From: Antedon bifida
Taxonomy: Eukaryota; Echinodermata; Crinoidea; Comatulida; Antedonidae
Length of the DNA: 64,000 nt
NCBI GenBank assembly: GCA_963402885.1
Contig: OY727094.1
Span: 9,984,501-10,048,500 of the forward strand
Direction: 5' to 3'
A program made the position numbers and the translations under genes. The notes below the pieces were generated by a model that saw only the letters and a list, made by a program, of their open reading frames with translations, searched no databases and had not been told where the DNA came from. Shown here in pieces: positions 5,201 to 64,000 of the stretch. The first letter of the stretch is position 1, and each line of letters opens with the position of its first letter.

Positions 5201-5208
5201 AAACAGAT

Positions 5209-13220
<8,012 letters not shown>

Positions 13221-20992: not shown

Positions 20993-21820
20993 CTGTCCTG
21001 GTTATTCATAGGTTTAAATAAATAAATACTATTAAGTGTTTTGATTTCAAATTATTTACGCCGGAGCTTCAGAAATTAATTGGCGTGTCATGTTAAAAAG
21101 GGTCAAGTTAAAACCTGACGAATCAGGGATAAATCCTTAGGGTAGGACCATTAGCTGTGTGCTGCCCATATTATTATTATCTCAATGAATGAAAATGACA
21201 CTGTTTTATATCACTTTATTTCTGATAATGTATATAATTTTAGATAAAAATACCAATAAAACATTTATATAGTGCCAATTCCAAAAAAAAAAGATGATCA
21301 AAGGCGCCTTGTATCATGAAATTTGCTAAATAAATGAATTTTTAAATTAATCTTAAATGAGTGGAGGAAAGATTAACAAAAGGAGGTAGTTCGTTACAAG
21401 AAGAGGATGCAACAAAGAAAAATGAGTCCACGTAGGCCTAAGTCTATTAGTCCGGAAACAGGGAAAATACCAATGATATATAGTTTTTATTTGTCCAACC
21501 AGAAACATAATATCGCTTTTCTTTAGATCAAGCCTGTCGGGTTAGCTTTGTTTCTATCACATTAGTTCAATAAATGTCTTGGGAGTACTACTGTTGGAGG
21601 TGGCATTTGCTCATATCAAGACGTTGTTATAAATCAAGCTAACGTCGATAAAAAAAAACTATATTTTACCCATGCTTAAGCCAATTTATTTATAATTTTA
21701 TATAAGTAGATTGAGATAACTGAAGTTCAAATGCCTCAATTTTACAGTAGTCCCGTCATTCTAGTGATGGAACTAGAACAAATTGCAACATGTTTGTACT
21801 ACAGGGATTCCACCTATACA
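20993..21820. other. No gene seen
   Basis: AT-rich intergenic sequence; no repeat structure or open frame worth reporting. Confidence 0.5.
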
Positions 21821-23413
21821 ATGTCTAATACTCCAAAATATCAATTGGAATCTAAGTCAAGGAACATGTTTAAATCGTAATTTCAAAATAGCCAGTGGAC
21901 GTATAGAGTCATTGCGGTGTCATAATTCTTCACAATGTATGTTTATATTAACTCTAATGCAACATTTTCTTCTAAAAGTGACTAGAAAACCCTTTCTGCA
22001 ATTTTGACCTTTGAACCGTGTTTGCCTATCGAATTAATGTAGTCGTACAGTTAGAGAGAGAACTTTCACTCGAATGGAATATTTTGTTTTTTACTGGAAG
22101 CGTAATATTGACCATTAACCTTTAAAAATTGCAGCCGCGGAATGGTACTTTCAATTTCTTCAAAACACACATTGTAATCTTTTGATATATAAATACGAGT
22201 GTTCTCATTAACTTTTTTTCTACCGTAAGCTATTTAAGTAATCTGATTTAATTCTAACTTTAAGCCAATCACAATTCAGCTATTTGTTAAATGTACTTAT
22301 TTAATTATTACCTTGTTTGACAAAAGATGGAGGAGACAGAATTGTGAATATTGACTTCAATGTATAAATAATTAATTCTATATTTAAGATACAATACGGT
22401 ACACTATTTACACTGTAGTTAAAATACATTCGTTTCAACAAAAACTTCAGTTAAGTTTAAGTTTATATTTATTCATTTTTAGGCTAATAAATATTTCTGC
22501 TAAAGTTAGTTAAGGTTATACTATTCATAATATGCCAGATGGATCGTCTTTATCAGCACTTCCATGGCTTCTATGAATGAATATGACTTGATTTGAAGTA
22601 AGGACGCCAGCGAAAGTTGACAATATCTAGTTTTTCTCCAATCATTAACGCAAGAATGATGTGATAGCCTACGTAACTGCTGTGACCGGATGGTTTGGCA
22701 AAGGGGATAATGCCAAATGATATTCAAATTGTTCATGTGCACCTATTATAGTGATTCTTGCAATCTTTGGGTGCAAAATTAGCTTTGCAAAAATATTACA
22801 ATATTTTATTTTTACTGACATCACTTCAATATTGCAATGATCGAATTTTGTTTTTGTTTAGAGGCATTTTGCGAGTCTCGCCTTTGCTTTTAAGGAGACA
22901 TTCACTTAAATGTCGTTGATAGAAATATTTTGCATTATAATTAGACAAACAACAAATCTATTTAAAATTAAATTTAATAGCTGGATTATGATTGGCTTAA
23001 AGTTTAAATTGACATAGTCAATTACAGTACTAACATTCAATTTCGAACTGAAATATTTGGCACAAGTAGCATTCTAAAGCAAATATTTTAACATTTTAAA
23101 TAAATACATTTAATAAATAGCTGAATTTTAAATGGCTTAAAGTTAGCTACGACCATTCGTCATTTAGATATTGCAAACACAAGTCAAATATCAAAACTCC
23201 TATGGGGTGTTCTAGTCACTTTTAGAAAAAAAATGTTGCATAGGACAAATATAAACATATACATTGTGAACAATGTGACAATGAAACGACTCTATACATG
23301 TCCACTAGTTACAAGATACATACATGCCTATTAAAATAGCGTCCATTTTGAAATGAAGATTTAAAAATGTTCCCCCAATCGGATTTGTTCATATTTTTTT
23401 GGAGTATTAGACA
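21821..23413. mobile_element. Older, diverged foldback element related to the 13.8-19.6 kb family
   Basis: The left arm (about 21821-22320) pairs with the reverse complement of about 22950-23413: GTCTAATACTCCAAAA at the outer left, TTTTGGAGTATTAGAC at the outer right, then matching blocks around AACATTTT...AAAAGTGACTAGAA and AGCCAATCA. CAACATTTT followed by TTTGACCTTTG also occurs in the large foldback arms, suggesting a common family. Arm identity is much lower than in the large element. Confidence 0.55.
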
Positions 23414-23421
23414 TCATATAG

Positions 23422-24146
23422 ATGACATCTCTGAATCCTGATAAGTTGTCTGAAACGCTAAGTGAATCTCTTTTAAATATGCTATATACCAGCGTAATTC
23501 AGCCCTGTATGGACTATGCTATCTATGTGTGGGGAACTACGTCTCAAAAAAATAAAAATATTCTTTTAAGGTTACAAAAACGTGCCGCTCGAGTTGTAAA
23601 AAATAATTTTGACTTCAAAAACTATCGTGGGATTGATATTATTAAACAAAATAAATGGAAATTGCTAGATGAACGTAGAGACTACGCTCTTGTTTGTATT
23701 ATGTACAAATGTATACATGGTATTGCACCCCCCCCCCCCCCCCCCCCCCATCTGTGCAACGATATTGAAATGGTTTACGACCAACATGGATACTCTACGA
23801 GATATTCCCAATCTCTGAATGTTATACCACCTATGTCAAATTGCTTATTAAATGAACGGATCGCTAAAGATTGCAGGAGCAAAAGCTTGGAATAAGATCC
23901 TTGTAAAAATTTAAGATAGTTTCTGTAAATAGTTTTAAAATTAATTATAAAAAGCATTTCTTTAAAAAATAATTGTATTTCCACACTTATTTTTATTAAC
24001 GTTCTATATTCACTGATTGTTTTGTATTTGTATTTTTTTCTATGTTTCATTGCAGGACCATATTGAAAAACCAAAATTTTGTGATCTTTTCTTTTCTGAA
24101 TTATGTTATCCTGCCTAAATATGTTTTAATAAATAAATAAATAAAT
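23422..24146 (+). mobile_element. LINE 3' end with C-terminal reverse-transcriptase segment, decayed
   Basis: The frame 23422-23895 encodes the segment after the RT catalytic core: LYTSVIQPCMDYAIYVWGT, then RLQKRAARVV, a signature of CR1/L2/Jockey-type non-LTR elements. A frameshift near 23870 moves the SGAKAWN-type block into another frame. The insertion ends in an (AATA)n tail at about 24127-24146. A poly-C run at about 23727-23749 interrupts the coding region. It is 5'-truncated at the edge of the neighbouring foldback element. Confidence 0.75.
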
Positions 24147-25330
24147 ATTCGACAAGCTTCGCGTTCGCGAAACGAACTGAGTTGATGCATACATTGCGTC
24201 ACAAATGTCCGTATAGCGTCAACTAGTATGGCTCACTGACACACGACGCAGCTCTCATTAACATTTTTGGTGTCTATATCGTGCTAAATTTGAGGTTTTA
24301 TTGTTGGATTTGTTGCTGTATCGCTAAGATGATTGGTCAGTTCTTACGTTTTAGCGTTGCGATATCGCTAGAGTTGAGCTGGATTCAACTCTTGCGATTG
24401 TCAACGCTTGCGAATTGTAGCGTCGATTATTACACCTTTTCCTGTAAATCGCCGACGTTTTGTATCGTAGTCGTAGTTAAAAAGTATCTTTTCCTGTAAA
24501 TCGTTAACATTTCAATGTTTACGTAGGAGATCGCCGATTATTGTTAACGATAGCGTCGAATAACGTCGACAGGAAAACAGGCTTCTGTTGGGCTTAGTTG
24601 TGTAAGCCTAGCTGAACGAACATCGTACGCTAGCTATATAGGCATAGCCTGACGTTGTCGCTTTGCTGAATGCATTTTACTTTCCTTTTTAGGCAGAATC
24701 CGTTAATGAGGCCTAGCTATGATATAATTAAACCTGTATCACTATTGATTCTAAGGTTATGTGCGAGTTTTAATTACTTCATTTAATGAATGTACATTGT
24801 TGTAAAACAACAAATAAATATTTCAGAAACATAAGCAACATAGGCCTATATATTTTATAACGTTTTTATTTTATTTATTTTTGCATTAGCATTTCCATGG
24901 ATTTTCCTATGTATATTATAGGAAATGTCATTTTAAGTGTCAAATTCTTATTCAATTTCATTTAGACTCAATTTTGAATACTATACGTACGTAGGTGCAG
25001 CTACATAGTTGGTGACTTTTTGCAGCAGCTACCCTAGCAGCGCGACGAGAGATCATTTTCGATTACCGCGTGAAAACTATTTCCAGTCCCATCGTGAATA
25101 TTCATGTATGGATTCAGGCCCTATATAGTATCTGCCTTAACCTAACAGGAAAAACGGTATAGTTAATTAATCCCATTTTTATACCATTTGTGAGCTTTAA
25201 ATGAGTGTTTACCAATTGACAAGGTACTTGTATACAAGTTAGATTAAAACATAGATTCAATGTAAAATTTAATTTGATGATGGGTTTTTAAAAAAGGCCG
25301 TCATTGTTTCATTACCATATGAAAGACCTG
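24147..25330. other. Intergenic; CpG-bearing stretch without a recognised gene
   Basis: From 24150 to 24640 the sequence has many CG and TCG words, a TTCGCGTTCGCGAA palindrome near 24162 and a short direct repeat CTTTTCCTGTAAATCG (about 24437 and 24487). It could be an unrecognised mobile element. The remainder is AT-rich and featureless. Confidence 0.35.
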
Positions 25331-25340: not shown

Positions 25341-25518
25341 TTGCCTTCAGTTCAGAAGAATTTTCCATTGAGGTTAGGCCTATAGACATAACATAAGATC
25401 GATATGTTTCACTTTCATGTGTAACTTCTAGAAAGTCCAGGTTAGAAAAAAATTTCCAAAAATGATTCCAGAATTTGCGACTCACTGATTTCGCAACTGT
25501 AACATTATGAAAGCTGTA

Positions 25519-28500
25519 TTAAAATTGAAAATGTTCCATTACAGCTGAAAGGGTATCAAGTGCACTGTCGTCTACCAATGAATGCAATTCAAATATTCGT
25601 TTTTCATTTGCGTATCTGCAAAGCATGTGTCTATCACTCATTAGTCCATGTACGATTATATAGATATGAACTAGCATAGCACAAAAATCTGTTGTCGATT
25701 TAGTTGCTCTTGTTTTCATAATCATTGATAGCGTATTTTCAATTCTGTCATAACAATTGCTTTGATCATCTACATATTTTAGATACTTGCTCATAAGTTG
25801 CACCAAATGTATATCTGTCTTTTTAAGGCTTAGAACATTTCTAAATGACTCTGACATTTCTGAGCAAGTTTCTCTCAGTATTTTATCCCTCGATATCTCT
25901 CTATCTAATTCTTTTAATACTGAATGTCTGTGTTCTGCCTTTACATATCTAAAGTACTTTGCTAGTGAGTAATAGTTTGAAGCTTTTACTTTCAACCAAT
26001 GTTTCATAAATCTACCAGCATCAGCACCTAGAAATCCTATAGTGAATACGATTGTCGTATGCAAATAGTCATTAGACATTATCATTTCACACTCATTCTC
26101 CTTCAAATCACCTGACTGGCACTTATCAGCAAGGTATAACCCTGCTAATGCATCTGAAAGTAGCTTATGCGGAGGAGCAAAAATCTCCTTTCTATCTCTT
26201 TTAGAAACAGGTTGCTTTTTGTAAACAAATCCAATTCTAAGTGCCAAATCTACTATTTGTCTTTTCTCAAACATACATGTGAATTTATACTTGTCAATTA
26301 TAAGTGTATTTGTCTGTAGTCCTTCATACATACATTGGCCTAATGCCAATAGTGCAGTTTTAAATTCAACTGGAATTCTCTCAACATTTTCAATTCTAGG
26401 TTTGACTACCGCCCTATTTTCCTTTAATATGAACTGATTTAAAGTGCAACAAATTAATTCTTTGAAAATATCTGACAAGTGTTTAGAAAGCTTTCCGAAT
26501 TCTTCCCATATACTACAAATCATGAGCAGTAAAAGTGGTGAGGAACACAGTTCAACTATTGAATTATCTTTATGTGTTAATTCACTACATAACATTTCCC
26601 CTTTATTGGGAACCTCATTATTGACGAAGTATTTCTCAATGTATTGCCTCTGACTTTCTTTACTAAATCCATTGACTTCAATGTGCACGTCACACGCTTC
26701 AACAAATTTAGTAATATTCTCAGGTCGTGATGTTATTAATGTTGTAGTTTTAAAATTCCTACTTATAAATAAGCCTATTGGAACTTCAACTCCTTGCTTT
26801 ATCTCATCTAATCCATCTAATAGTACAACTATTTTCTCCCCCTGTTTGATTAAAAATTGTTGAATTAATTCTTTTGGAGATTTTGTATCCATGAACGAAC
26901 TGAAAACCTGAAGGTTTACTTGATCAACAATCGTGTCTATGATTGTCTTTCCATCCTGTAAATCTCTGATGTTTATTAGAAACAATATTTTATCAGAAAA
27001 GGTATCATCTTTATTGCTAGCCCAGTTATAAGCAATGTATCTGAGAAGGGTTGTCTTTCCCATCCCCCCTTTACCTGTTATAAGAACTTTACATGAACAT
27101 TTAGATCTGATAACCTTCAAAACATCTTTCAAATTTGTACGTTTAGATTCTTGCATCCTTGTTGCATGGTCGACATGTCTTTGTTTTGTAGATTGAAGTA
27201 ACTCTAGATCTGTGAATACATCTGCAATATCAACTTTGTATTGTTCACCAAAAACTGCTGCTTCTATTAGGTTCATATATCTATATGAATCTTCTTGTTG
27301 TTCTTTCAGAAATATCATAACGTCTGAAAAGAAAACATCGTGTTATAATAACAAACCTTAATACGGGTGCCTTTTCAATTGAAATTAAGTAGAGAGACTA
27401 TTTTTTCAGTAGTTTCACATAAGAAAAGTCCATTACAGTACAGAAAAAAAAATCAATGGTTACTTTTACCCTTTTCTGTCGGTGACAATGTGTTTTCTTC
27501 AGAGATAGAAGAGAAATGCTGTATTGTTTTTTCATTTAATTCCATACCTATTAAAAAGTAAGTACCATTAGACACACAAACACAGGCCATTGTGTTCTAA
27601 CCTGTCTTCAAGTTCGACCTCGTATGATAATAACACTCCTACAATATGCATCTTCCGTGGAATTATAAAAACTTGAAGAATTCTTTTTCTTTAAAAATAT
27701 ACTAAAACTTGTTGTAAGTAAAATTAGTTTTAAATATTGGGCGGTGGACACGGGTTATGGACATAACAATAGACACAAACAAAGTTATGAACTGAAAGGG
27801 TAGAATGAGAATACTTTTCACTGGTGATAGAATGAATTTCTTTTATTTACACCAAGATGGTCATAATTATCAGTATATTTTCATGGTCATAGTTATATGC
27901 GACGGTATGCATTTCGAAATAAAGGTTTTTGAGAACTTGTAATTTAACTTTTTATATAGATAGATTGATAAATGAAACCATATTTACTAATTCGAAAACT
28001 AACACTCATATTATATAAAGTCGAAACTAACAGCCGTGATGACTATCTTTATTTCATTTTGCGTTTCGGCCCACGCTGTATTGTGTATGTTTGTGGATTT
28101 TACTAGCGCTTTACACTATTACCATCAAGAAGAATATATACTTTGTTAAAACGTTGATGACTAACCTGCTTGTGAGCTATGTTCTTCTTTAAATGCACAT
28201 TCCTTGTTTGATTTTTCTGTTTAAAAAATTATGTATGAATTGGAAACCATTTTCTAGATAGACATTTATATACGAGTCATATCAATCTTTCATTAACTAA
28301 ACATATTTTCTTACCAAATTCTTTTAGTTTTTCCAATGCTTTGCTGTAATCCTGTTCAGGAATTGCAATGTCCATCTCTACATTCTGATATTCGTCTGTT
28401 ACTAATATTTGCACTAAATCGTGTTTCAGCTTGTTGTTTGAATACATTTCCCACAGATTTTCCAATGCTTCTGAGTCGTGTGCCACTAGATATAACACTA

Positions 28501-30992
28501 AACTTCCAGTTTCTACTTTCTCAAAATGTAGATGCTTTTTTTCGAAATACACGGCAAGCTTTTTCATAGTATTGTTAACTTCATTGACAGCTGTTATCTT
28601 CCACTCTTTCTGTTCAGCCAATAAATTGAAAAGAAGTTCTAGTGCATGTGGTTGCCCACTTCCATTTACCGATGAAGGACTTTGGTTCCTAATGAGAGTT
28701 AATGCAATTTCCACACCTTAAATGAAAAAGAGAAATGTTATCTTTCAATTGTCATCATGTCTATTAAATATGTTATACGTAATTTAAGTAAAACACAACA
28801 TAATTAGAGTAGTCACCCTGTATTGCACAATACTACATGACCGCAAGATAACTAGTAAAATAATAACCTTACAAGTTTAATTTACTGGTTTTAACTTACT
28901 CGTCATGTGAAGTTAGATTAAAATATAAAGGTGAGATAATTTAAAAAAATGTTTCTTGCTGACTATAAATGAAAAAAAAATTGGCATTTGTAGAAATTTG
29001 TAACGTTATCTACTGCACTTCTGCATATTTCAGCTCAAATGTTATGCCAACATAATTAACACAATTTAGGTAATCCAGTGGAATAATGCAGTTAATAAAT
29101 TAAATTTGTCAACAGAAATGAACATGAAAAGTAGAAAATAATAATTACCTTCATAGCTTTCCTGCGCAGTGTTTGATGAAACTGTAAGATATTTATTAGT
29201 TAAATTATGTACTTGTTAAATGTATTTGAAATACACGACACACTTGACAACAAATCAAAAAGAAAAATCGAATTGCTTATCTAAGAAGGTGTCAGACTCA
29301 TGGCTTAAAGGGAGCGTATTTTGTATGTCTATATAGCAGGCTGCAAATGATTAACGTAAGAAAGAGCGTTACATTTTATATCTGAAGTGCCAACGCAAGC
29401 ATAATAACAAACGCTACTATAGTGAATTATCAGTTATAGGCCTAATTTGAAGCTGTATTGAACAGACACGATCGCGATTAGTGACAATGAACTTTAAATG
29501 CAAAAGTAGCTTAAAATAATTAATTCACAATGGTGTCTGAGCTATATTTTTTTCCTTTAAAAAGTGAGTAACTCTTATTAGAGAAACAATAATGTAGGCC
29601 TAATGCTAACATCACAGTATTTACACAACTGTTGATTTGACACAATAGAATAACTCTTCTTAATTCTACTATACTGATCTTTTTTGGTTTCTAACTGTTA
29701 AAATTTACCTTGAGTTTTTAATTTCTTTAAAGCATCTTTGACTTTATCTGAGTCAATATTTACTTTCCAGTCTTCTCGAAATTTCTGTCTATTTTCTGGG
29801 TCACTTAAAACGTTTGCTAAAGCGTCAATTAGCTCGTCCTCGTAATGCATGTTAATTAATTCTTTCAAAGCTGGTGGATTTTTTATACACAAACAAAAAT
29901 ATATCGATGCTTCTGGGTTGTTGATTCCTAACTTTTTCCATTCCATTTCATTTAAAATACCACGTGGCTCAATAGATTTCAAACCTTCATTAAACATGCT
30001 GCCCATATAAGACTTATTTACAGTGACACAAACCGTTTCACCTTTCAAAGAAATAAACATGTTAAAAATAAATACATAATAAATTATATAATTATAAAAT
30101 GATCAATGATTTCCATAAAATAACCATACCATAATAAGCACAAAACGCCAATAACTTAAAAGTGGTTTAATTTAATTTTTATTTTATTTAATTTAATTTT
30201 TATTTTATTTAATTTAATTTTTATTTTATTTAATTTAATTTTTATTTTATTTAATTTTTGAACTGATAGACGCAATGTACTGATTCAAAAATGATTTGTA
30301 TTACTTTGCTGATATACACCATTATAGATGCAATGCATTCCACTTCGCAAACAACAATTGATGTAATCATCATCATCATCATCATCATCATGTTGCTACA
30401 ATGTTACAGAAAATTAAGACTTCCAAATAAACTAAACATGTTTCCACGTACCTCTACCTAGTAATATGTTTTTTGCACGTTCGCTAAGGCATTCAGCAAA
30501 CTCAATTATTGTATGTTGTTGTTCAGTAGATAATTGACCAGTAAGCTCCAACTTATGTACTGCTTCCCAGATATTTTTGAATCCGAATGTGTTTAGTTTA
30601 TAAACAGCCATAACATTCTTGAATGCATCTGGATCTACTTGTCTTAACGCAATAAAAAGCCTTTTCCTATATTGTGACAACTGGTAATTTATATCGTCTT
30701 CAGACGTATTGTGATTGCTCGAAATATACTGCCTTACAAGTTCTATAACTTTCTGCAAATTTGATACCGTAGCAATATCTAAGAGAAGTGAAACATTAGT
30801 ATGCGAAATGATACCTTTCTCTTCCAGTCCATTGAATAAATCCAGTGCTGTTTTGCTTGGGTGAGTGACGTCCTCCAAATCCAGATGTTCGAACAGAAAA
30901 AATCTGAGCCAAGGGTATTTGTCACCTTCATATAGTTTACTGAGATTATTTATCAATTTAGAGAACCTTTTTTTAGCATCATCATCTGCCAT
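25519..30992 (-). CDS. STAND/NLR-like receptor: DED-DED-(TRADD-N-like)x2-NACHT, 1054 aa
   Basis: Exons on the minus strand: 31018-30452 (ATG at 30992-30990), 30041-29709, 29181-29149, 28716-28315, 28216-28166, 27323-25519. The coding sum is 3165 nt and every intron is phase 1. Domains: residues 8-90 form a death effector domain (ALDLFNGLEEKGIIS core) and 108-178 a weaker DED-like repeat (IWEAVHKLELTGQLS). Residues ~225-291 and ~340-436 are two copies of an alpha/beta domain with the SLVLYL...ALENLWEMY and KALEKLKEF pattern, which I relate to the TRADD N-terminal-like family. NACHT: Walker A GKGGMGKTT 537-545, Walker B VVLLDGLDEI 619-628, sensor TTLITSRPE 647-655, then helical winged-helix-type region with FAPPHKLL...AGLYLA. 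No LRR or other repeats follow. NACHT proteins oligomerise on sensing danger and DEDs recruit caspase-8-like partners, so a cytosolic immune/death sensor is the likely role (inference). Confidence 0.85.
30169..30258. repeat. 21-bp A/T tandem repeat, about 4 copies, in intron 1 of the NACHT gene
   Basis: Unit ATTTTATTTAATTTAATTTTT repeats almost perfectly. A (CAT)n run follows at about 30367-30392. Confidence 0.85.
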
Positions 30993-31018
30993 TTTAAAAA
31001 AGTATAGTAGCCCCTCGT

Positions 31019-43699: not shown

Positions 43700-44480
43700 A
43701 ACGTTCAACTACTACTACTACTACAACGTTCGAATAACGTTCATTCAAAAAACGTTGTTTGTTTTACATTATTTTAACGTTGAGGGAACGTTTACAGTAA
43801 TGTTCAAATATAACATTAAAATAACTTGTCTTGATAAGATTTATCTAACGTTCAAAAAACGTTAAAAATAATGTTTAAATCTAACTTAAACAGAACGTTT
43901 TTAATAACGTTTATCGAACATTAGAAGGACATTCAGAATAACGTTCAAAAAGTAGCTTTCAGTGAACCTTTTTAACAACGTTCATCTAACGTTAGATTAA
44001 CTTTCATAATAACGTTAAAATATAACGTTACATAACTATTTCTAAAACCTTTATCTAACGTTAAAAGAACGTTCACAATAATGTTTAAATCTAACTTAAA
44101 CAGAACGTTTTTAATAACGTTTATCGAACATTAGAAGGACAATCAAAATAACGTTCAAAAGTAACTTTCAGTGAACCTTTTTAACAACGTTCATCTAACG
44201 TTAGGTTAACTTTCATAATAACGTTAAAATGTAACGTTACATAAATATTTGTAAAACCTTTATCTAACATTGAAAGAACGTTCACAATAATAATTAAATC
44301 TAACTTAAACAGAACGTTTTTAATAACGTTTATCGAACGTTAAAAGGACAATCACAATCAATGCAAAAGTAACGATTAGAGAACATTTTATAAACATTCA
44401 TCTAACGTTAGATTAACATTCACAATAACGTTAGAAGATAACTTAACATTGAAAAGAGCGGCAATTAGAACTTTAAAATA
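43700..44480. repeat. AACGTT satellite block with ~210-bp higher-order period
   Basis: The word AATCTAACTTAAAC recurs at about 43878, 44088 and 44297. Within each ~210-bp unit AACGTT or a one-base variant appears about every 15-25 bases. Copies are clearly related but diverged. Confidence 0.8.
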
Positions 44481-49828: not shown

Positions 49829-51495
49829 ATGATTTGCTATACTCGAAATGAAATTTTACTTCTTTCTTCTACATGCGAGAGTAAAATACTGAACGATTAT
49901 TGCTGTAAAACTCTAATAGAAAATGGAATATTTCGTAATGGAAACGAACCTGATATATGGCAAGGAAAAGGTGTCATTAAAAGCCGTAGACGTCACCGAG
50001 GACGTCGCGGTGGCCGTAAAATGAGGAAAACAATTGATACTTTGATTACAAACCGTTCAGTTAGACTAAATAAATCAAGAAGCGTCAATCAATCTAACCT
50101 GATTCCAGTCTCAATCTTAGCTAATTAATAAGATTAATAATAAGGTGACGAAATTCCAATTTCCCACTTTTCTATTTACGAATCCATGTTCTATTTGTAA
50201 TAAAATGGAAGACCTTCAGGTAACACTGGAACATAATAACATTCAAGTTTGTTCACTTGCGGAAACATGGTTTAATGGAGACTATATTTGCAAGGTCAGT
50301 GACTATAATATTTTCTATAAGAGCCGCACAAATACCAGAGGAGGAGGTATAGCAACCTACGTCCACAACAGCATTCCTTCTGATGACGAACTAGAATGTG
50401 TTTGGGTCAAATTACAGCCTTATAAGCTTCCCCGTGAAGTTTCTGAAATATATGTGTGTACCATTTATTGTAGCCCTAATCAAAACAAAGACCATCAACG
50501 TGACCTCTTAAACCATCTTAGAAATTCGATTGATACTATTCGTTCAAGGAGAAATTTAGCAAAAGTCATTATTGCTGGGGATTTCAACAGTGTTGATATC
50601 TCCCCTCTAATTAAACATGTCGTTGATTTTCACCAAGTTGTTAAAGATAAAACCAGAGGAGACAACATTCTTGATCTCATAATTTATCGGACCTTAAAGA
50701 TTTTTATATGACTCCTATAATTCAAGCCCCACTTAGAAAAAGTGATTACAATGTCATTATTTGGAAACCGCTGAACTCCATTAAGTGTAATGGTAAAATG
50801 GTTACAAAGATTTTTAAGCCTTGTACTGATTCGTCGATGAGAAGTTTCGGAAACTGGATTACCAAATTTGACTGGTCGCAGGTCTATAGTATAAAAAATG
50901 TAGATGATAAAGTGAATATAATGAACGATACCCTCACCACCGCGTACAACAAGTTTTTTCCTACCAAACATTTGCGAGTTTATTCTACCGATAGACCTTG
51001 GATTACTCCATACATTAAGAAACTGATCAGGTATAGACAAACTGCTTTTAGGAAGAAAAAACATGAACGTTACAAAACACTTAGAAATAAGGTAATTTGG
51101 GAAATAAAGGAGAAGTACTATCGTTATAAAGTAAAAACGCTTGAGGTGAGCAATACCCGTAAATGGTACGACAAATTGAAGCAGATTTGTGGTAAGCGAA
51201 AAGACAAACCAAAAATTGCATTTGATAATCCTTTACCGATCCCAGATTCCGTTGCCTCTAAACAAATTAATGAACACCTCGCAAAAATTTGTCGTGAACT
51301 GGATCCTCTCAAACTTGATGAATTGCCTACATACCTCCCACCTGAGGGTCAACCGCCACAGTCCAACAACAATTATTAAAAGTGTAGATTAATAAATCAG
51401 TTCCACCTGGAGAAATTCCACCAGTTATCATCAAGGAACTTACACCTGAAATAGCAGAGCCCCTAACGCATATATTTAATTCTTCTTTGAAAGAG
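49829..51495 (+). mobile_element. Non-LTR retrotransposon, 5' portion with endonuclease, truncated by an insertion
   Basis: A 99-codon frame (49829-50128) carries the basic run RRRHRGRRGGRK. The next frame (50145-50711) is an APE-type endonuclease with AETW, a GGGIA block, GDFN and DNILDL. A frameshift near 50700 leads to 50708-51379 (DRPWITPYIKKLI linker). After another frame change near 51380 the start of RT appears (SVPPGEIPPVII, SSLKEQG) and stops at 51495, where a hAT-type end begins. L2/CR1-type; relatively well preserved but dead. Confidence 0.8.
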
Positions 51496-56470: not shown

Positions 56471-56800
56471 TTAGTGATCAGATTCGACGAGCATCACAAG
56501 ATCATGAATCGGTCTGCAATAGCTCTTCCCATTGGTTGACACACGCACACTAACTTGCCGGACACAACCATCGGCTCCTTCAAACACCTTGTCCACTATA
56601 GCCATTGGCCACTGGTTACGCTTGACATTCTTATCCCGCAACATCACTATGTCACCATCTCTAACGTTTCTTTCCTGTACATTCCATTTGCGACGTAGTT
56701 GAAGTGTATTTAAGTATTGGATCTGCCATCTCTTCCAAAATTGCTCTGCCCCATTATCTGCACCAATCTCCACTGGGCTTGTGACGGTTTCGTTAACTGT
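56471..56800 (-). pseudogene. BEL/Pao polyprotein C-terminal fragment (DUF5641-type)
   Basis: The minus-strand frame contains FWKRWQIQYL, RRKWNV, VRDGDIVMLRDK, RNQWPMAIVDKVFEG and VRQVSVRV, the characteristic segment after the integrase in BEL/Pao retrotransposons, ending with a stop at 56471. Everything upstream (gag, protease, RT, integrase) is missing. At about 56800 the coding sequence passes into the duplicated CCDC157 upstream DNA read antisense, so the first ~20 codons of the open frame are not BEL sequence. Confidence 0.85.
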
Positions 56801-56802
56801 AA

Positions 56803-63607
<6,805 letters not shown>

Positions 63608-64000
63608 GTAAGTAGTCTTACAAACTGTGTATTTTATTCTTTACTTAAAAGGTCAAAGGTTACAGGTCAAATGTTTCATGTTCAAGTTCAAGGTGGTTGA
63701 ACTGAAAGCTCCCTAATGATTGGATGGAGTCCTGTATTGTGAAGTTTGAAATTTCGGGATATGATATTACATTGTTGCTACTGTATACATTAAACATGTA
63801 AAGTTTATTATTGTACTTTATGGTAAATGTATTTATTTTATGAATGTCATTGTATTAATATTGATAATTGATTACTATATGTTATTAAACATTCTGGTTT
63901 TTTTTATAATCAACTGAGTAACCCATAAATAATTTGTTAAATTCTATGAATAGTTTTATTCATTATTATATATGTTAACTGAGTGCTTTTTAAGTATGTT
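63608..64000 (+). other. Intron 11 of CCDC157 copy 2 to the window edge
   Basis: Starts with GTAAGTAG as in copy 1. The final exon was not reached. Confidence 0.6.

Follow-up and report, generated by a model that had tools for sequence, protein, structure and literature searches.

Gene structure and domain content of the locus

A stretch of 64,000 nucleotides from the feather star Antedon bifida (GenBank assembly GCA_963402885.1, contig OY727094.1, forward-strand positions 9,984,501 to 10,048,500), hereafter called the window, carries on its minus strand a gene that is predicted to join a tandem death-effector-type (DED) region, two consecutive domains resembling the N terminus of TRADD (TRADD-N-like; T1 and T2) and a NACHT ATPase. 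The model runs from 30992 to 25519 and consists of five coding exons that join in frame to give 1,037 amino acids and a stop codon; all five exons are open, and the introns are GT-AG and in phase 1 throughout. Its features are as follows:

30452..30992, minus strand: coding exon 1, with the start codon ATG at 30992; tandem DED-like, residues 1-180
30762..30965, minus strand: DED1, residues 10-77, matched by Pfam DED under the curated cut-off
30459..30692, minus strand: DED2, residues ~101-178, not separately matched by Pfam
29709..30041, minus strand: coding exon 2, encoding the TRADD-N-like domain T1; residues 223-226 read PEAS
29149..29181, minus strand: coding exon 3, a 33-base linker of phase 1-1 that keeps the frame (acceptor TTACAG, donor GTAATT)
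28315..28716, minus strand: coding exon 4, encoding the TRADD-N-like domain T2; its predicted strands 2 and 3 flank a GS motif
25519..27323, minus strand: coding exon 5, NACHT ATPase and C-terminal region, stop codon at 25519-25521

The intron between the T2 and NACHT exons measures 991 bases, with matching phase and splice sites that are consensus-like by eye. The start codon occupies the same column as MA or MG starts in 8 of the 20 other rows of a family alignment (A3), several rows of which are cut by match borders, with their starts unseen. An initial annotation of the locus had proposed an in-frame gene in this place, and a coherent gene model was indeed recovered on the minus strand; the 1,054 amino acids in six exons that it counted gave way to 1,037 in five coding exons, and the extra 17 amino acids may be 5' untranslated sequence read from an acceptor at 31018. 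Intron 1 also contains a perfect 21-base tandem repeat (30166-30257, 4.4 copies).

A NACHT ATPase in the encoded protein is certain by sequence comparison: Pfam NACHT matched residues 516-671 with E=3.2e-21, and both a Walker A motif (GKGGMGKTT, 520-528) and a Walker B motif (KIVVLLDGLDE, 600-610; numbering of the 1,037-residue model) were found, in agreement with the complete domain first proposed. Residues 821-835 form a stretch that we take to be winged-helix-like. The nearest solved NACHT domain in a sequence search of the PDB was that of NLRC4 (5aj2, 4kxf; E=8.7e-10).

The tandem-DED exon was assigned largely through its paralogues. DED1 matched Pfam DED with E=3.8e-5 when the exon was searched alone and 2.2e-4 within the whole protein, both under the curated cut-off, while 12 of 21 family members matched at E<=0.1, the best with 6.7e-9. 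Searched against the PDB, the tandem-DED family profile found the tandem-DED prodomain of caspase-8 (4zbw and others; E=7e-4) over columns 7-127 of 174; caspase-8 supplied the nine best of 15 rows (E 0.0007 to 0.0051), and the remaining six (E 0.025 to 0.7) were unrelated. Apart from having no Pfam match of its own, DED2 is reached by the caspase-8 match in part, to column 127, and hhalign detected no homology between DED1 and DED2 (0.5%). Another DED exon type in the same genome, at locus L037, scored above the Pfam DED cut-off (37.3 vs 35.9 bits).

For T2, TRADD-like_N (PF20694) was matched under the cut-off (E=7.8e-4 with the exon by itself as query, 0.04 with the whole protein); among the T2 family, 11 of 19 members matched it at E<=1 (best 1e-5), and it led the Pfam families found, the next best by E reaching 0.0029 in two members. 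None of the 17 T1 members matched TRADD-like_N at E<=1. Hhalign nevertheless identified T1 as a homologue of T2, at 97.0% in one comparison and at 96.5% (score 58.4) in another, in which 100 column shuffles scored at most 19.0 and four T-against-DED pairs 10.5-15.3. A hallmark of TRADD-N, as described in the available sections of PMC8195603, is Ser or Cys preceded by a tiny residue, located where strand 2 turns into strand 3. All 19 T2 members carry GS (12) or GC (7) in the turn that a low-confidence AlphaFold2 model places between these strands; at the equivalent position T1 members have AS (10 of 17), SS (2), PS (2) or no Ser (PA, PA and AT), so that a tiny residue plus Ser is present in 12 of 17. 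In a PDB sequence search the T2 profile returned one chance-level row (E=0.29) and the T1 profile none.

A profile search with the model thus gave a strong NACHT match and DED and TRADD-like_N matches under their cut-offs. Sequence comparison supports the order initially annotated, DED-DED-TRADDN-TRADDN-NACHT, with NACHT as its firmest element and DED2 and T1 as the least firm: DED1 stands through its paralogues and the caspase-8 profile match, DED2 is partly covered by that match, T2 leads to TRADD-like_N, and T1, itself without such a match, follows through its homology to T2.

A multigene family built on the same exons

The T2 exon gave 94 matches in the genome at E<=10, of which 35, the window counted, had E<=1e-10; the tandem-DED exon gave 580 first-look candidates, the best 150 of which were scored. 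We sampled 20 loci picked from the T2 matches, covering 2.0-7.7 kb downstream of T2. A DED exon was present in 19 of these and T1 in 17, always alongside the DED exon (split in frame in L036, partial in L035), such that all three exons occurred together in 17 of 20 loci. By sequence comparison, the doubled DED/TRADD-N-like set is therefore a standing unit of a multigene family in this genome, and the window gene is not singular in carrying it. Among the 150 scored candidates, tandem-DED exon matches also form a dense array at C8:13.99-17.44 Mb (contig C8), a very large DED expansion.

A NACHT exon of the window kind was rarer, occurring in one of the 20 sampled loci (L037). On the same strand and within 10 kb downstream, NACHT was listed at 3 of the 35 strong T2 places, compared with a random mean of 0.12 and no draw of 2,000 reaching three; this count is overstated because the window was chosen for the association and the other two places (on C8 and C16) are related segments. 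NACHT listings are lower bounds throughout. At the C8 locus a DED-T1-T2 series, and at the C16 locus a T2 exon, stands ahead of the same NACHT subfamily as in the window, and both loci have three DED exons between T2 and NACHT. Those of C8 appear by eye to be in phase 1 at both ends and the first has no start codon, so that C8 is likely to hold a single gene of the order DED2-T1-T2-DED2-DED2-DED2-NACHT-LRR (LRR, leucine-rich repeat). The C16 copy (10.33 Mb), read from T2 up to where NACHT begins, has kept in frame only the second part of T2, with two stops in the match. At L042 (C7:32.73 Mb) the locus edge truncates a DED exon, which is accompanied by a single TRADD-N-like exon and, 5.4 kb further on, by a NACHT exon. 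On the same strand, a DED match lies 0.9-6.6 kb upstream of at least 11 NACHT places, with no listed T2 match between.

In a 30-row tree of DED exons, the window DED grouped with ten rows from T1-T2 genes (93/91, below the starred level), apart from the DED-NACHT rows. In a separate comparison of NACHT exons, that of the window was nearest to LRR-type or long-frame genes; the window gene thus appears to be composite. The position of one T1-T2 row (L026) inside a NACHT group (100/99) is consistent with exon shuffling, and shuffling would be possible because the exons of the family mostly start and end in phase 1.

Probable loss of the leucine-rich repeats

Searching the genome with the exon 5 protein gave 81 matches, among them the protein itself and split copies. 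All 16 close paralogues with long matches (residues 4-564 or more, 56-64% identity) have longer frames, 1,066-3,675 amino acids vs 607 in the window; frames of the partial close matches range from 863 to 5,105 amino acids, except for two split copies at C8:20.25 and 20.53 Mb (433 and 578 amino acids). In the one paralogue of the 16 that was read, at C8:20.56 Mb, the NACHT frame runs directly into LRRs, which matched Pfam LRR_1 at its cut-off (20.6 bits) and form 11 copies of a unit of ~118 residues in the 2,070 amino acids read. Over C8:20.556-20.569 Mb (L041 and L037), NACHT and a long LRR array lie in one open frame of 3,450 amino acids. By blastn, the window DNA aligns with this paralogue through the window stop, over 27320-25406 and at 73% identity. 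Behind the stop, the DNA contains the following:

25405..25518, minus strand: in-frame continuation of 38 codons past the stop, homologous to the LRR lead-in of the paralogue (tblastn, blastn)
21802..25154, no strand assigned: repeat DNA between NACHT and the LRR relic
24618..25154, no strand assigned: repeat, two copies elsewhere among the matches listed
24314..24584, no strand assigned: repeat, many copies
23441..24145, no strand assigned: repeat, presumably LINE-like (long interspersed nuclear element), many dispersed copies
~21802..23433, no strand assigned: self-inverted repeat, no other copies among the matches listed
21509..21627, minus strand: LRR relic that aligns with the C8 LRR array over 126 columns at 73% (blastn, E=3.8e-13)

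Repeat copies were counted among the best 40 of 1,730 candidates scored. The relic, on the same strand and ~3.8 kb downstream of the exon 5 stop, has a frame break and a stop. The LINE label derives from an open reading frame (ORF) at 23422-23895 that we take to be of this kind and that had no Pfam match at E<=0.01. One listed copy of the 24618-25154 repeat (C7:8183348-8183843) lies ~0.7 kb from a NACHT place (C7:8181052-8182680).

Given the homology behind the stop, the LRR relic and the longer frames of the paralogues, the LRR-less end looks like a loss. The receptor without LRRs described initially is accordingly accurate as to where the open frame ends, and the relics that follow the stop make its lack of LRRs secondary. 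A natural LRR-less receptor type was rejected on the LRRs of the C8 paralogue, the longer frames in 16 of 16 paralogues and the relics downstream. Since NACHT is present and no LRR array stands in frame, the gene is best described as a truncated derivative and not as a bona fide NOD-like receptor (NLR).

Constraint on the coding exons

Pairwise ratios of nonsynonymous to synonymous substitution rates (dN/dS) were computed for exons 1, 2, 4 and 5, exon 3 comprising 11 codons. Against three paralogues each, they were 0.41-0.48 for exon 1, 0.35-0.51 for exon 2 and 0.39-0.56 for exon 4; against the C8 copy, exon 5 gave 0.45 before the stop (dS 0.54) and 0.92 after it, the latter over 38 codons only and with no significance test of the difference. 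Control pairs of other family members gave 0.43 and 0.40. Relative-rate tests used ten outgroups, of which a single C7 cluster supplied six; with none of the ten did the window gene show a significant excess of its own changes over the C8 copy (chi2 0.01-3.66), and the excess behind the largest value (3.66) lay on the C8 side. A long-dead pseudogene was rejected, less firmly than the natural LRR-less type, on these ratios (0.35-0.56) and the relative-rate test; as averages over two lineages, pairwise ratios argue against a long-dead gene and not against a recently dead one.

Comparison with known systems

In the available sections of Kaur et al. (2021; PMC8195603), invertebrate TRADD-N proteins of the DEDD2/NCOA6 clade are described as having a constant DED-TRADD-N unit and a variable C terminus, with STAND (signal transduction ATPases with numerous domains) NTPases among the C-terminal modules in the oyster Crassostrea virginica. 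The window gene resembles these proteins in its N-terminal DED followed by TRADD-N, lineage-specific expansion, variable C-terminal modules and retroelement association, and differs from those described there in having a tandem-DED exon and two consecutive TRADD-N-like domains joined to NACHT. DED-NACHT and Death-NACHT NLRs are reported from amphioxus, sea urchin and Nematostella in the accessible part of PMC2575513, and the accessible part of PMC8913654 lists 53 NLRs in the holothuroid Chiridota heheva, of which 24 have death/DED domains, 22 are NACHT-only and one has LRRs. The DED ahead of NACHT and the LRR-less state thus have echinoderm precedents in these sources; unlike the genes reported there, the window gene has two TRADD-N-like domains between DED and NACHT.

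The family profile match likens exon 1 to the caspase-8 prodomain; unlike caspase-8, the window model contains no caspase domain, and the match covers part of the profile. NLRC4, whose NACHT is the closest solved one by sequence, has a CARD in place of DED/TRADD-N, and LRRs. The order DED2-TRADDN2-NACHT was not found in the literature searched, with most subscription journals outside its coverage, and for crinoids or feather stars that literature held nothing on such genes beyond the consulted parts of PMC8195603 and PMC8913654. The kinds of component are already published, and the DED2-TRADDN2-NACHT order would be the new element.

Other features of the window and genome

Positions 5202-12551 and 56804-63657 form a large direct duplication in pieces, 85-96% identical, carrying a near-identical ORF of 260 amino acids that is coiled-coil-like (7015-7797 and 58604-59386), with weak, sub-cutoff Pfam matches. 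At 43840-44449, AACGTT-rich units form a degenerate tandem array with periods of 70, 139 and 209. Two ORFs are probably retroelement remains: one is endonuclease-reverse transcriptase-like (50121-50711), with a match under the cut-off (3.4e-5), and the other matches DUF5641 (56471-56869; 7.6e-26). Rfam gave no matches in the 64-kb window. The mitochondrial COX1 gene (C27:10587-11927), presumably echinoderm-like in sequence, is best read with genetic code 9 (AAA=Asn, ATA=Ile) at positions that we take to be conserved, and its coding strand is T-rich; this code is common to echinoderms and some flatworms, and T-rich coding strands are a feature of crinoids.

Discussion

We consider it probable that the window gene is related to invertebrate DED/TRADD-N and NLR proteins, arose by exon shuffling and has lost its LRR sensor, and that it is probably still constrained. 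A tandem-DED exon and two TRADD-N-like exons would have been joined to a NACHT exon whose read relative has LRRs; a stop would have cut off the LRR part, which repeat DNA separated from the gene, and an LRR-less protein would be left over, probably kept under purifying selection.

Several points weigh against this account. The splice from T2 to NACHT is a prediction from the DNA itself, and at 32 of the 35 T2 places the 20 kb downstream contain no listed NACHT. The DED, T1 and T2 matches of the window protein are below curated cut-offs or absent, so that the DED and TRADD-N assignments appear to depend on its paralogues, and the branch of the window DED is long (0.67 vs a median of 0.13). The best Pfam row for T1 is Dpoe2NT, in 2 of 17 members (2.1e-4). 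Single-sequence AlphaFold2 models, a route proposed for confirming the fold, which is RRM-like in TRADD-N domains, were too poor to be informative (predicted local distance difference test 45 for T1 and 54.6 for T2), and Foldseek with the low-confidence T2 model returned 181 rows, none at E<=0.001. Finally, pairwise dN/dS averages both lineages, and the window gene may be a recent pseudogene.

A bolder extension, which we regard as doubtful, is that giant receptors of the order DED2-TRADDN-TRADDN-(DED2)x3-NACHT-LRR exist in this genome, as the C8 locus would suggest, and that the window gene is their sensor-less, constrained descendant, acting as a helper or dampener of LRR-bearing paralogues in the manner of plant helper NLRs. 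If true, caspase-8-type and TRADD-type adaptors would be brought together on one STAND switch.

It is rather unlikely that the gene died recently, its LRRs lost and its open frames mere leftovers of a gene no longer used. The stop before the LRR relics, the repeat DNA behind it and the uniformly longer frames of the 16 paralogues would fit such a history; all five exons are nevertheless open with GT-AG borders, the tested exons have ratios like those of the two control pairs, no acceleration is seen relative to the LRR-bearing C8 copy, and the ratio is nearer neutral after the stop than before it, by a difference that carries no significance test.

Also unlikely is the wrong joining of two neighbours, a DED2-T1-T2 adaptor gene and the orphan NACHT exon of a decayed DED-NACHT-LRR gene. 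The scarcity of NACHT at T2 places, in the sampled loci as within 10 kb of the strong places, and the NACHT places preceded by DED with no listed T2 between speak for two genes. Between its T2 and NACHT, however, the window contains nothing that matches the C8 DED exons, its intron there is short, phase-matched and flanked by consensus-like sites, and DED-T1-T2 on C8 and T2 on C16 precede the same NACHT subfamily, with a first intervening DED that looks internal.

That T1 and T2 belong to an unrelated ferredoxin-like or other alpha-beta domain is improbable: the Pfam results for T1, the sub-cutoff T2 match, the lack of a meaningful PDB sequence match and the poor fold models leave room for it, but TRADD-like_N leads for T2, every T2 member has the GS or GC that PMC8195603 describes, and DED plus TRADD-N is, in the available sections of that source, a known constant unit in marine invertebrates.

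If the window gene is, as we favour, a constrained composite that lost its LRRs, ATP-driven oligomerisation of NACHT could cluster the N-terminal tandem DEDs, and these might then nucleate DED assemblies that take in adaptors or caspases with DEDs of their own; the TRADD-N surfaces would recruit a second class of partner. As first proposed, the protein may link caspase-8-type to TRADD-type signalling. Without LRRs, its trigger would depend on other family members, and its role could be that of a helper, amplifier or dampener.

The locus would thus provide a case in which phase-matched exons bring caspase-8-type tandem DEDs and TRADD-N-like domains together with a NACHT switch, and in which an LRR sensor was lost while the remainder appears still constrained. 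If transcribed, the gene would offer its large family of relatives in the feather star a sensor-less partner whose role could be tested.

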